A DNA stretch of 64,000 bases from Cyanobacteriota bacterium (GTDB lineage: Bacteria > Acidobacteriota > Vicinamibacteria > Vicinamibacterales > UBA2999): positions 1 to 64,000 of the forward strand of contig JAIEMQ010000022.1 in the NCBI GenBank assembly GCA_019752015.1, in the 5' to 3' direction. Below, piece by piece: positions 10,342-30,386 of this stretch. The notes under the pieces were generated by a model. That model saw only the letters and a program-made list of their open reading frames with translations, had not been told where the DNA came from and ran no database searches. How positions within the stretch are numbered: the first letter of the stretch is position 1; each line of letters begins with the position of its first letter. The position numbers were made by a program, and so were the translations under genes.

Positions 10342-10446
10342 TTCGGCCCGGAACCTCGGCAATCTCAGGGCGGCGAATCGCGTCAGGGCCGGAAGGCAGC
10401 AGCGCTAAGTCGTTTCCGTGATGTGTTGAGGACCTCCGGGCCGAGT
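10342..10446 (+). ncRNA. ffs: signal recognition particle RNA, small bacterial type
   Basis: RNA component of SRP, which with Ffh brings membrane proteins to the translocon. The conserved apical domain is visible as GTCAGGGCCGGAAGGCAGCA (10382-10401), with the GGAAG-type tetraloop and the asymmetric internal loop. The ends close by perfect pairing of TCGGCCCGGA (10343-10352) with TCCGGGCCGA (10435-10444). About 105 nt long. The neighbouring dnaX is its common partner in many bacteria. Exact ends are estimated from the closing stem. Confidence 0.92.
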
Positions 10447-25859: not shown

Positions 25860-28502
25860 TTACTCGGATCGCAGGACGTCGAGCGTCGTTCCGATCGTGG
25901 CGCGGCGAGCGGGAATCAGGCACGCGGCCAGCCCGACGCTGACGAGCAGCAGCGACACGAGGGCCATCGTCTGCCCGTCGGTGGCGTGCACGCCGAATAG
26001 CAACGCGCGAATCGTTCGACCGAGCAGCAGACCCAGCGCGATCCCTGCGGCGACACCGGCAAGGACGGGGGTCATCCCTTGCCGGACGATCGATGCCATC
26101 AGCGCGGCGCGGCTGGCGCCGAGCGCGAGGCGGATGCTGAGCTCGTTGCGCCGGCGCGTCACCGCATACGCCACGACGCCATAGATGCCGACGCTCGCCA
26201 CCAGCAGCGCCGACACCGCGAACAGCACGACGAGCCGTGATTGCAGGCGCCGCTGCGCCACGGATCCATCAACCAATCCTTGCGCCGGCTCGATCGGCGC
26301 GATTGGCAGCGTCGGATCTTCGCCGTGCAGCGCGTTGCGAACCGGCGCCACCAGCGCGTCGGCATCCGCTCGCGATCGAATAACCATCGCCACATCGCCG
26401 GGGGGACGCTGCCAGTACGGATAGTAGGCGTGCGGCGCGGAGATGTCCTGCAGCACTGCGCGCGTGTCGGCGACGATGCCGACCAGCAGTTTGGGCTTGT
26501 CGTCTTCACCCATGAACTCGCGGCCGACCGGGTCCTGATCGTCCGGCCACAGCAACGACGCCGCTTTGGGCGACAACACCGCGACGCCGCGCGCGCGATC
26601 GGTGTCGTCGAAGGCGCGCCCTTTCAGCACCTTCACGCCCATCGCGTCGAAGAAGCCCGGGCTCGCATACCGGTTCTCGACGCTGTGACGTTCCGACGAG
26701 GCATCGCGATAAATCGCGTCGTTCCACGAATTGCCCTCGAGCGGCAGCTGCGTAGTGAATCCGACGGCCTGGATGCCGGGGATGGCATCGAGACGCGCGA
26801 GCAATCGATCGAAGAAGCGCGAGCGTCCCTCCGCATCTTCATATTGAGGTCCGGCGGTGTCGACGTCGAACGTGAAGACCTGTTCGGTATCAAAGCCTTT
26901 GTCGACGTTCAGCAGCCGGTTCAGGCTGATTGAGAGCAGCACGGCGACGATCAGCAGCGCGGTGCTCAACCCGACTTCGACGCCGATCAGCATTTCGCGC
27001 AGCCGCGCGCCCTGGCGGCCGTCGGTGACCGCCCGGCCACTCGATCTTAACGCGTCGCCGGGCAGCTGGCCGGCGAGACGCCATGCCGGCAAGACGCCGA
27101 AGATCACCGTCGTCGCCAGCGTCGCCAGCAGCGCGAACACCATCACGCTCGCGTCGATGCGGACTTCGTGAAGCCGCGGCAGCTGCACGGTTGGCGTCGA
27201 GGTCAGCATCTCGACGATGACGGAGGCGAGGAGCAGACCACAGGCGCCGCCGAACCCCGAGAGCAGCATGCTCTCCGAGAACGCGTGCGCGAAAATGCGC
27301 CCGCGGCTGGCGCCGAGCGCGCTGCGCACCGCGGTCTCACGCGCGCGGGCCGCGACGCGAGACAGCAGAAGATTCGCGAGGTTGACGCAGACAATCAGCA
27401 GCACCGCGCCGACCGCCGCCGCCAGCATCCACAGTGCGAGCGAGCGGCCGGTCACGATGTCCTGCAGCGGAATCAGCAGGGCGCCGAGCTCGCCGCCGGC
27501 GCCGGTCATCGCGGGGAAACGGCTCTGGACGACGTTCAACTCGGCGAGCGCGGCCTCGGGAGTCACGCCCGGCTTGAGTCGCGTCAACGCTGCGTAGTTG
27601 TAGTTGCCCATCAGCCGCGTGCGCTGATCGATCGGAATCACCAGCGGGCGGAACATCTGATACTGGTTGTTGGCCGGCGAGCTCGACACGCCTCCACCGA
27701 ACGCGGTCCAGAAGGAACCGGCGACGACACCGATCACCTGGTGATCGACGCCGTCGATCAGCACCATCCGCCCGAGCAATGAGCGATCGGCGTTGAATCG
27801 CGCGCGCCACAACGATTCGCTGAGGATGACGACGCGATCGAGACCGGGCTCTTCTTCCTCGGCCCGAAAGGTGCGGCCCAGCATCGGCTCGGCGCCGAGC
27901 ATCGAGAAGAAGTTGTGCGTGACGCGCGCGCCGCGCGCGATCGCCGCGGCTTCGTTCCCGGCGCCGATCTGTGCTCGGGAGTTGCTCAGGATCGCGACGT
28001 CCGCCAGCGACCGGCACTCGGCCGCCCAGGCGCGGGCGTGCGCCGGATTGACCGGGAACACCGCCGTGTCTTTGTCGGTGCGCACCTCGCGCACGGCGAA
28101 CAGTTGTCCGGGATCCCGGTAGGGCAGCGGCTGCAGGACGACGGCGTTGACGACCGAGAAGATCGCGGTGTTGGCGCCGATGCCGATGGCGAGCGACACG
28201 ATCGCGACCGTGGAGAAACCGCGATTGCGCCGCATCAATCGCCAGGCGTAGCGAAGATCCTGCAGGGTAGCGTCGATGAACGGGACGCTGCGCTGATCGC
28301 GGTACTGCTCCATCGTCGATGGCACGTTGCCGAACTTCACGCGCGCGCGGCGCCACGCCTCTTCGTCCGGAACACCGCGCCGGATCAGATCCTCCGCGAG
28401 CATCTGGATATGCGAGGCGAACTCCTCGTTGAGGTCGCGTTCGGATCGATGCAGGCCGGCAATGCCGAGCAATCGATGCCACATCCGCCGCAGCGCGCGC
28501 AT
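25860..28502 (-). CDS. ADOP-type ABC transporter permease
   Basis: Membrane permease of 880 aa in the acidobacterial ADOP family (MacB/FtsX superfamily). The N-terminal ~85 residues (HRSERDLNEEFASHIQMLAEDL) form the family's cytoplasmic lead domain; TM1 is AIVSLAIGIGANTAIFSVVN, followed by a MacB-like periplasmic core, a central helix cluster with LLLSRVAARARETAVRSALGASRGR and a C-terminal copy ending in ACLIPARRATIGTTLDVLRSE. ATG overlaps the PadR stop (TGATG), so they are coupled. A longer reading frame to 29378 exists but runs antisense through PadR and the ATP-grasp gene. No ATPase gene is nearby, as is usual for this family. Confidence 0.9.
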   Translation of the reverse strand: MRALRRMWHRLLGIAGLHRSERDLNEEFASHIQMLAEDLIRRGVPDEEAWRRARVKFGNVPSTMEQYRDQRSVPFIDATLQDLRYAWRLMRRNRGFSTVAIVSLAIGIGANTAIFSVVNAVVLQPLPYRDPGQLFAVREVRTDKDTAVFPVNPAHARAWAAECRSLADVAILSNSRAQIGAGNEAAAIARGARVTHNFFSMLGAEPMLGRTFRAEEEEPGLDRVVILSESLWRARFNADRSLLGRMVLIDGVDHQVIGVVAGSFWTAFGGGVSSSPANNQYQMFRPLVIPIDQRTRLMGNYNYAALTRLKPGVTPEAALAELNVVQSRFPAMTGAGGELGALLIPLQDIVTGRSLALWMLAAAVGAVLLIVCVNLANLLLSRVAARARETAVRSALGASRGRIFAHAFSESMLLSGFGGACGLLLASVIVEMLTSTPTVQLPRLHEVRIDASVMVFALLATLATTVIFGVLPAWRLAGQLPGDALRSSGRAVTDGRQGARLREMLIGVEVGLSTALLIVAVLLSISLNRLLNVDKGFDTEQVFTFDVDTAGPQYEDAEGRSRFFDRLLARLDAIPGIQAVGFTTQLPLEGNSWNDAIYRDASSERHSVENRYASPGFFDAMGVKVLKGRAFDDTDRARGVAVLSPKAASLLWPDDQDPVGREFMGEDDKPKLLVGIVADTRAVLQDISAPHAYYPYWQRPPGDVAMVIRSRADADALVAPVRNALHGEDPTLPIAPIEPAQGLVDGSVAQRRLQSRLVVLFAVSALLVASVGIYGVVAYAVTRRRNELSIRLALGASRAALMASIVRQGMTPVLAGVAAGIALGLLLGRTIRALLFGVHATDGQTMALVSLLLVSVGLAACLIPARRATIGTTLDVLRSE

Positions 28503-28846
28503 CAGGCCTTCTCGCCTTTCAACGCAATGAAACGATCGACGATCTCGTTGACCTGGGCCCACTGCGACATTTCGGCGTTCAGCTGCTTGAGGCCCGCGCG
28601 CGTGATGCGATAGAACCGGGCGCGGCGGTTGTTGTCGGACACGCCCCACTCGGATTCGATGGCGCCTTCCTGTTCGAGCTTGAGCAACAGCGGGTAGAGC
28701 GTGCCTTCGTTGATCGACAGTGCATCCTCGCTGGTCTGCTCGATGCGCCGCGCCAGGCCGTAGCCGTGCTGCGGACCCATGGCGCTCAGCGTCTTCAACA
28801 CCATCAAGGCGAGCGTGCCTTGCCAAACCTCGGTCTTCGGACTCAT
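28502..28846 (-). CDS. PadR family transcriptional regulator
   Basis: Winged-helix repressor of 114 aa, start MSPKTEVWQGTLALMVLKTL at 28846. PadR hallmarks are HGYGLARRIE, NEGTLYPLLLKLEQEGAIESEWG and NNRRARFYRITRAG. It is paired with the ADOP permease, which it probably represses together with itself. The start codon lies inside a palindrome, TTTGGG-AAA-CCCAAA, and a -10/-35 pair lies just upstream, giving an almost leaderless transcript. Confidence 0.93.
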   Translation of the reverse strand: MSPKTEVWQGTLALMVLKTLSAMGPQHGYGLARRIEQTSEDALSINEGTLYPLLLKLEQEGAIESEWGVSDNNRRARFYRITRAGLKQLNAEMSQWAQVNEIVDRFIALKGEKA

Positions 28847-28891
28847 TTGGGAAACCCAAAGGACTATCGCACTGTTCCTTTGGGAAAGCAA
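28846..28891 (-). promoter_or_regulatory. PadR promoter and operator
   Basis: On the minus strand TTGCTT (28891-28886) and GATAGT (28868-28863) stand 17 bp apart as -35 and -10. The perfect dyad TTTGGGAAACCCAAA (28846-28860) overlaps the start codon, and a second TTTGGGAAA half (28879-28887) sits between the promoter boxes exactly 33 bp away. This is the expected arrangement for autorepression by PadR. Confidence 0.6.
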
Positions 28892-28898
28892 CAGGAGC

Positions 28899-28928
28899 TT
28901 GACAGTTTACCGGGACCAGTGACAGCAT
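28899..28928 (+). promoter_or_regulatory. promoter of cysteine leader and ATP-grasp gene
   Basis: TTGACA at 28899-28904 is a perfect -35. A weak -10 (ACAGCAT, 28922-28928) follows at 17-18 bp. It lies back to back with the PadR promoter. Confidence 0.5.
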
Positions 28929-28949
28929 CGCTTCATCTTGGTCGCGGTG

Positions 28950-29018
28950 ATGTGTACCTGCGCGTGTTGTTGTCTCGAGGCACCTGCCTCCGGCGCCGCG
29001 CTCTGTACCCGACCGTGA
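28950..29018 (+). CDS. cysteine-rich leader peptide (attenuator)
   Basis: A 22-codon frame begins M-C-T-C-A-C-C-C: five of the first eight codons are Cys, all TGT or TGC. It ends in TGA at 29016-29018. A partial ribosome-binding site (GGTCGCGGTG) precedes it. Codons 14-16 (TCCGGCGCC, 28987-28995) can pair with GGCCCGGA, the 5' arm of the terminator at 29051, over eight base pairs with one bulge. Ribosome stalling at the Cys codons would leave that stretch free and prevent termination. This is the layout of classical amino-acid attenuation; the peptide itself would have no other role. Confidence 0.6.
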   Translation: MCTCACCCLEAPASGAALCTRP

Positions 29019-29050
29019 TTCGCTAGTTCGCATCCACGAGTTCAGCACGA

Positions 29051-29090
29051 GGCCCGGAAGGCGAGACCGCTTTCCGGGCCTTCGTCTTTT
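29051..29090 (+). terminator. attenuator terminator upstream of ATP-grasp gene
   Basis: GGCCCGGAA (29051-29059) pairs with TTCCGGGCC (29072-29080), with a further GGCG/CGC pairing inside the loop, followed by TTCGTCTTTT. It lies 58 bp before the ATP-grasp start, and the tail is only moderately T-rich. Confidence 0.65.
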
Positions 29091-29138
29091 CCGAATCCCC
29101 GCAGCGTTCCGCCTTCCTTCAACAGCAAGGGAAGGATC

Positions 29139-30386
29139 ATGGCGACAGCACGACCCATCGGCATCTACTACGAGCACCCCGACTGGTTCCGGCCGCTCTT
29201 CACCGAGCTCGACAAGCGAGGCGTCACCTACGAGGCGGTCAATGCCGATCGTCATTCTTACGACGCGACCAACGGCGACGGCTCTCAGTACGGCCTCGTC
29301 TTCAATCGCATGAGCCCGTCCGCGTATTTGCGCGGCCGCGGCCACAGTATTCTCTACACGCTCAACTACCTCGCCCACCTCGAACAGCTCGGCGTCCGCG
29401 TCGTCAACGGGCTGGCGGCGTTTCGTACCGAGACGTCAAAAGCGCTGCAGCTGTCGCTCTTGAAATCGCTCGGTCTGCCGTTCCCGGCGGCGCACGTGAT
29501 CAATCACCCGGATGCGGCGCCGGCGGCGGCGAAGGGTTTGCGCTTCCCCGTCGTCGTCAAGGCGAACATCGGCGGCAGCGGCGCCGGCATTGTGCGCTTC
29601 GATACGCCTGAGGACCTGGAGCGCGCGGTCAGGGAGGGCCGCGTCAAGCTCGGCGTCGACGAGACCGCGCTGGTGCAGGAATTCATCCCGGCACGCGGCG
29701 GCCGCATCACCCGCGTGGAAGTGCTCGGCTACAAGTACCTCTACGCGATCAACGTCTACAGCAGCGGCGAGAGCTTCAACCTGTGCCCGGCCGACATCTG
29801 CCAGAGCACCGACGGCGTCGAGCTCGCCCGCGGCGCGTGCCCCGTCGATGCGCCGAAGAACAACCTGCGTGTGGAGCGCGCCGATCCTGAGCGCGAGAGC
29901 ATCGACGATGTGGAGCGGATCATGCGCGCGGCGGACATTGAAATCGGCGGCGTCGAATACATGATCGACGATCGCGACGGGCAGCGGTACTACTACGACA
30001 TCAACGCGCTCTCGAATTTCGTCGCCGATGCGCCGCGGGTGATCGGCTTCGATCCGTTCCAGAAGCTCGCCGACTACCTCGAACAGGAGACACGCTATCG
30101 CCGCGCGGCCTGCATACGGAGATGTTTCGGTCGGAGCGTGATGCGCGGTTCGAGCGCCGGCTCGGTGCCGGCGACGAACCGCCACTGCTGCGCGATGGTG
30201 GAGAGCAGCAGGATCAACTCCGTCCAGGCAAATGACTCGCCGATGCAGATGCGGGACCCGCCCCCGAACGGAAAGTACGCATACTTGGGCCTCGTCCGGC
30301 TCCCCGCTCCCGGCTCCCGGTTCCCGTCAGCGAGCCAGCGCTCTGGTGTGAATGATTCCGGATCAGACCACCAGCGCGGATCGTGA
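29139..30386 (+). CDS. ATP-grasp enzyme, RimK/GshB-like, with antisense C-terminal extension
   Basis: Carboxylate-amine/thiol ligase fold. Residues 1-~320 are the recognisable enzyme: an N-terminal pre-ATP-grasp domain, then FPVVVKANIGGSGAGIVRF (ATP-binding glycine loop), ALVQEFIPA, and YYYDINALSNFVAD with the metal-binding Asp/Asn. It resembles RimK- and glutathione-synthetase-like ligases. The cysteine attenuator upstream suggests a Cys- or thiol-linked product, but the substrate is unknown. Strong AAGGGAAGG precedes ATG. After about residue 319 the frame continues 97 codons (30095-30386) antisense to the end of the P450 gene with no family resemblance, suggesting that the original stop was lost. 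Total 415 aa. Confidence 0.8.
   Translation: MATARPIGIYYEHPDWFRPLFTELDKRGVTYEAVNADRHSYDATNGDGSQYGLVFNRMSPSAYLRGRGHSILYTLNYLAHLEQLGVRVVNGLAAFRTETSKALQLSLLKSLGLPFPAAHVINHPDAAPAAAKGLRFPVVVKANIGGSGAGIVRFDTPEDLERAVREGRVKLGVDETALVQEFIPARGGRITRVEVLGYKYLYAINVYSSGESFNLCPADICQSTDGVELARGACPVDAPKNNLRVERADPERESIDDVERIMRAADIEIGGVEYMIDDRDGQRYYYDINALSNFVADAPRVIGFDPFQKLADYLEQETRYRRAACIRRCFGRSVMRGSSAGSVPATNRHCCAMVESSRINSVQANDSPMQMRDPPPNGKYAYLGLVRLPAPGSRFPSASQRSGVNDSGSDHQRGS

Follow-up and report, generated by a model that had tools for sequence, protein, structure and literature searches.

The element that precedes the ATP-grasp gene in the window (the whole 64,000-nucleotide stretch of DNA that was analysed) is very probably a cysteine-responsive, ribosome-mediated transcription attenuator, one of a family that serves sulfur acquisition and cysteine synthesis in a bacterial order. 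This reading is drawn from comparison of related sequences, in which the leader, its Cys codons, the stems, the order of the parts and the genes of the regulon can be followed from locus to locus. As in ribosome-mediated attenuators, a run of regulatory codons, an intrinsic terminator and alternative 1:2 and 2:3 pairings have been found, and most of the genes behind the attenuators of this family have sulfur or thiol functions.

The leader and its alternative stems

The TTGACA -35 hexamer that the initial annotation placed in front of the leader is located at 28899-28904 (plus strand), and TTGAC or TAGAC is kept in nine aligned leaders. The -10-like hexamer CAGCAT (28923-28928, plus strand) follows after a spacer of 18, a spacing common to the relatives. 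Its match to the consensus is weak, and a generic promoter scan of the window locus did not report it. The open reading frame that runs from ATG 28950 to the TGA at 29018 encodes MCTCACCCLEAPASGAALCTRP. This 22-codon frame had been proposed as the leader; the frame is real, but the start is probably TTG 28938, which is in frame and lies 9 nt 3' of CAGCAT, the same layout as in the relatives. The resulting leader, LVAVMCTCACCCLEAPASGAALCTRP, has 26 codons plus stop (28938-29018, plus strand). In most attenuator copies the frame of the Cys run has an ATG, GTG or TTG 8-10 nt past the -10, which puts the start codon on the expected transcription start or only a few bases from it. The leaders of the family, including that of the window, are therefore probably leaderless, as judged from the spacing between the -10 and the start codon.

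The putative sensing stretch (28953-28973, plus strand) has Cys codons at 28953, 28959, 28965, 28968 and 28971. The five Cys among eight codons noted earlier are thus present, a density that none of 2000 dinucleotide-shuffled versions of the 240-bp region attained. Among the ORFs of at most 45 codons in the 64-kb window, just two have five Cys in eight codons. The gene upstream of the leader encodes a PadR-like regulator (28502-28847, minus strand) and faces the opposite direction. Between this divergent gene and the leader promoter, a TTTGGG/CCCAAA-type inverted repeat (28850-28886) has been observed, which is a possible PadR operator.

Directly after the Cys run, a 1:2 hairpin of the form GAGGC-ACCT-GCCTC (28977-28990, plus strand) is seen in the single and consensus folds. 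The antiterminator strand, region 2 (28986-28997, plus strand), pairs with 29051-29062 once the 3' terminator arm is withheld from the fold, confirming the initial proposal that leader codons can pair with the 5' arm of the terminator. The terminator hairpin (3:4; 29049-29082, plus strand) has been found by the scanner and in both single and consensus folds and contains 15 pairs, 10 of them G-C. The GC hairpin described at the outset is present, but its T-rich tail, CGTCTTTTCC, is an interrupted U-tract, weaker than the TTTTT in relatives. All the parts, from promoter through leader, antiterminator and terminator to gene, occur in the proper order, as had been claimed. The scanner found one terminator against 1.3 expected per shuffled 2-kb region, so the window hairpin is not significant by itself and the weight of the case falls on comparison. 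The leader region as a whole is more stable on folding than its shuffles (z -2.9). Further downstream, a hairpin of CCTTCCTT and AAGGGAAGG (29101-29138) could mask the ATP-grasp ribosome site.

From these pairings we infer the following mechanism. Transcription would begin near the leader start codon. With ample Cys-tRNA, translation would proceed past the Cys codons, region 2 would be unavailable for pairing, and the hairpin at 29049-29082 would terminate transcription before the ligase. When cysteine is scarce, the ribosome would stall at 28953-28973 and mask 28977-28981, the 5' arm of the 1:2 hairpin, freeing 28986-28997 to pair with 29051-29062; the terminator would then be blocked and the ATP-grasp gene transcribed. 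Without translation, the 1:2 hairpin would form and termination would be the default.

Conservation and the genes behind the leaders

The ATP-grasp ligase is found in 47 of 149 related genomes (E 1e-30 or better), and with all loci oriented, nearly all of its closest homologues have a Cys-rich short ORF upstream. Nine leaders, that of the window and eight from related genomes, have been aligned from promoter through terminator. They have the TTGACA element, a -10-like hexamer (spacer 17-18), a start codon (GTG or TTG) 8-9 nt on, and the Cys run, followed by the segment GCCTCCGG-CGCC, the terminator GGCCCGGAAGGC...GCTTTCCGGGCC and a T-rich tail. The terminator is the most conserved part of the alignment. 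The Cys runs of the relatives show TGT/TGC third-base changes, and outside the run the leader peptide is free to vary among the regulon copies that were read. Conservation of the Cys run and the stems had been put forward as the check on the initial annotation; it passed this check across genera, and the Cys leader with its terminator does so across phyla. The likely start codon with its probably leaderless layout, the 1:2 hairpin and the membership in a regulon go beyond that annotation.

The consensus fold of the nine leaders has two stems, the 1:2 hairpin immediately 3' of the Cys codons and the 3:4 terminator. Leaving out the 3' terminator arm turns the consensus into the antiterminator, in which the GCCTCCG segment is joined to the terminator 5' arm. 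Single-sequence folds give the antiterminator in eight of the nine leaders, and in the exception (L007) the 2:3 form is not the optimum. Compensatory changes from A-U to C-G and from A-U to G-C occur in the terminators of relatives. True compensatory changes affect 3 of the 20 pairs in the 1:2 and 3:4 consensus and 1 of the 10 pairs in the 2:3 consensus, and they are few because the stems are conserved. In a set of 70 attenuators, the pairing of region 2 with the terminator arm of the same locus is worth -17.2 kcal/mol, compared with -15.6 kcal/mol for swapped arms, and none of 5000 permutations was as good as the own arms, a statistic that still includes the relatedness of the loci.

Some ligase loci of relatives have additional features. 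In one genome (G038, locus L036) the leader is located two genes higher, before TlpA-like and DsbD-like genes, so named from reading their sequences, that precede the ligase. In two others a tRNA-Cys(GCA) lies between terminator and ligase (L009 1391-1466, plus strand; L008 2506-2581, minus strand), and L006 and L007 have tRNA-like remnants at the same position. A DNA search of the L008 and L009 genomes found no second similar tRNA-Cys, a search that a diverged copy could escape.

A covariance model, R1, was built from the nine leaders with the Cys stretch included, and it matches in 81 of the 149 related genomes (E 0.1 or better). Of the 60 best matches read, 58 have a leader ORF with a Cys run (20 of 20 in a first batch and 38 of 40 in a second), a result that is partly expected since the model contains the Cys stretch. 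The downstream genes are information outside the model. By our own count, about 55 of the 60 attenuators have a sulfur or thiol gene in the same orientation no more than 2.6 kb downstream; the remainder are two TonB-type receptors, one unknown gene and two matches without a Cys leader. Clustering of the downstream genes, with representatives confirmed using Pfam and NCBIfam, gives uroporphyrinogen-III methyltransferase (25 loci), NirA-like sulfite/nitrite reductase (20), CysD or CysH (15), TlpA-like proteins (11), TauE/SafE (two clusters, of 6 and 5), a PF03601 (YeiH-type) membrane protein (5), cysteine-synthase-like proteins (4) and a sulfate-binding protein (1). The regulon includes sirohaem/sulfite reductase and CysDN/CysH genes. 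A protein with no NCBIfam match is encoded straight after one Cys attenuator (L227 215-946, minus strand) and is a candidate new sulfur gene.

The genome to which the window belongs has two strong R1 matches, the window locus and C59:16789-16937. The second attenuator, on contig C59 (L202 3790-3938, plus strand), has a Cys leader, and behind it lies an AhpC-TSA/TlpA-like gene (L202 3968-5200, plus strand). The CysD and cysteine-synthase-like genes of the same genome were checked for Cys leaders, and none was convincing. Matches to the pattern TTGAC-N30-60-TGYTGYTGY were no more numerous in this genome than in the reversed control, with a pattern that misses the window locus itself, where the spacing is one base longer.

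With one genome per species, a scan found the ligase at 80 loci (57-80% identity), in records that bear the names Acidobacteria, Gemmatimonadetes, Planctomycetes, Bacteroidetes and others. Short ORFs were counted in the 450 nt before the ligase, or before an FMN-reductase-like gene that precedes it. At 20 of the 80 loci such an ORF has at least four Cys in eight codons; the opposite strand yields 6 and shuffled sequence ~0.2. Roughly three in four of these loci have no strong Cys leader. In 21 of 22 Cys-leader loci checked, leader and gene are separated by a GC hairpin and its T-rich tail. The stem sequences differ in these other lineages. By inspection, many of their terminators have the form GGCCGCTC...GAGCGGCC, and many of their leader peptides place Glu-Arg immediately behind the Cys run, with codons for this pair that could read GAGCGG. 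Together these could represent another sequence solution to the same attenuator layout. Several Bacteroidetes relatives (L129, L138, L144, L150 and L156) have short ORFs with a Cys run at the stop codon, such as MATFATETASCCCCC, in the upstream region on the divergent (minus) strand, before large outer-membrane-receptor-like or TlpA-like genes.

These comparisons bear directly on the other explanations that can be offered for the window element. The Cys-rich ORF might be a product of chance and the hairpin an ordinary terminator, for example at the end of an upstream transcript, and about one such hairpin is expected by chance per 2 kb of the same composition. However, no shuffle reaches five Cys, the upstream gene points away, the arrangement is conserved across genera and phyla, and other copies precede sulfur genes. 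The comparative data count strongly against chance, which we consider extremely unlikely. The leader could instead sense a signal other than cysteine, such as thiol-reactive metals or oxidation, as the several TlpA-like or peroxiredoxin-like members of the regulon might suggest. The peptide varies freely outside its Cys run, though, and sulfate assimilation and cysteine synthesis account for the bulk of the regulon, which makes a different signal very improbable.

The element might also respond to cysteine at another level, with control of the translation start or of Rho access as in mycobacteria and with the hairpin in a secondary role. The leaderless polycysteine ORFs of mycobacteria are attenuators described as translational (PMC9031893, PMC13236596), and the ribosome site AAGGGAAGG of the window ligase can pair with CCTTCCTT just upstream. 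On the other hand, relatives such as L003 show no evident hairpin at the ribosome site, while the intrinsic terminator is better conserved than any other part of the leaders and recurs with a different sequence in other lineages. Control of this kind is judged unlikely, and transcription attenuation at the conserved terminator remains the preferred reading.

The ATP-grasp ligase and its partners

The gene behind the window attenuator encodes a RimK-like ATP-grasp ligase (homologous part 29139-30101, plus strand) that matches PF08443 at 24.4 bits (cut-off 21). The score for TIGR00768, the RimK alpha-L-glutamate ligase subfamily, is 68.4 bits, below the cut-off of 143.4. The ORF starts at ATG 29139 and extends to 30386, and its homologues end near 30101; it is therefore ~95 codons longer than they are and overlaps an opposing P450 ORF (30095-31924, minus strand), as if the ancestral stop had been lost. 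The AlphaFold model of the ligase has a pLDDT of 88, and its nearest folds are ArgX/LysX, PsnB and RimK, suggesting that the enzyme likely forms amide or ester bonds. Cys216, Cys221 and Cys234 are invariant in 42 homologues and are possibly a metal site or active cysteines; the confidence of the model is low in this region. Elsewhere in the window, a bacterial small SRP RNA is located at 10346-10444 (plus strand).

According to our own reading of the loci, a luciferase-like monooxygenase follows the ligase in 74 of the 80 loci. This partner scores 235 bits to SfnG (TIGR04021), below the cut-off of 383, and lies below the SsuD cut-off of 518; it is SfnG/SsuD-like and no confirmed SfnG. An FMN-reductase-like gene, identified from its sequence, precedes the ligase in ten loci that are Gemmatimonadetes by title. 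A search of the window genome found no SfnG/SsuD-like monooxygenase. A search of the same genome for NIR_SIR sulfite/nitrite reductase found none although CysD is present, suggesting that this organism depends on reduced or organic sulfur. In Salinimicrobium nanhaiense, a SAM-I riboswitch (L110 3479-3577, plus strand) lies ~420 nt upstream of the ATP-grasp/monooxygenase operon, which lends separate support to sulfur control of the ligase operon.

Since the attenuator of the ligase belongs to the sulfur and cysteine family, for the enzyme its most likely role is in organosulfur or thiol metabolism. The operon partners, together with the genes that follow the other attenuator copies, support by association the link to thiol metabolism suggested by the initial annotation. 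A broader proposal, to which we give somewhat less than an even chance, combines two parts. In it, an order-wide and possibly phylum-crossing regulon of leaderless polycysteine leaders with intrinsic terminators would be a main form of sulfur control in these Acidobacteriota. At the same time, the ligase, with its three invariant cysteines, would prepare a substrate for the SfnG/SsuD-like flavin monooxygenase in an uncharacterised organosulfur pathway, for instance by conjugating it to an amino acid. The cysteine attenuator could serve as a marker for orphan genes of cysteine and sulfur supply, including the ligase and its usual monooxygenase partner, and attenuation by a leaderless leader with an intrinsic terminator becomes directly testable.

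Relation to known systems

The ligase operon resembles the two-component sulfone and sulfonate monooxygenases SfnG and SsuD-SsuE in its SfnG-like partner and in the FMN-reductase-like gene of ten loci. It differs from them in that the partner scores under the SfnG and SsuD cut-offs, is coupled to an ATP-grasp ligase, and is missing from the window genome.

The classical attenuators of the trp, his and leu operons work by a 1:2, 2:3 and 3:4 logic with ribosome stalling at regulatory codons. The element described here has the same logic and would use the same stalling. Unlike the classical attenuators, it is directed to cysteine, has a seemingly leaderless leader, and belongs to a distributed regulon and not to one biosynthetic operon.

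No Rfam 15 family reaches its gathering score for the window leader or for the Cys leaders of related loci, and in the open-access literature no cysteine attenuation has been found described for Acidobacteriota or Vicinamibacter. The initial view that a Cys leader before this ligase is undescribed there holds to this extent, but cysteine attenuators are also known in Rhodobacterales (PMC8632094). Predicted Cys leaders with no conserved terminator were noted in 2005 (PMC1262725). In mycobacteria, leaderless polycysteine ORFs are cysteine-responsive attenuators (Canestrari et al. 2020, cited in PMC9031893), and their control has been called translational (PMC13236596). The present leaders are like these ORFs in being short, in carrying a Cys run before cysteine or sulfur genes, and in their proposed sensing of cysteine, and the spacing of their start codons suggests that they may be leaderless too. 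Unlike the mycobacterial leaders (PMC1262725, PMC13236596), they are separated from the gene by an intrinsic terminator that is conserved and has 1:2 and 2:3 alternatives.

The uORFC-8-2 motif before cysS in Rhodobacterales, for which ribosome-mediated attenuation has been predicted, likewise combines a leader ORF with tandem Cys codons and an intrinsic terminator (PMC8632094). This motif is found only before cysS and has two Cys codons, at positions 14-15 (PMC8632094). The downstream genes here are other than cysS, which places the present leaders outside the location that defines uORFC-8-2. They differ from it further in their longer Cys runs, in being probably leaderless, and in preceding many sulfur genes in other phyla.
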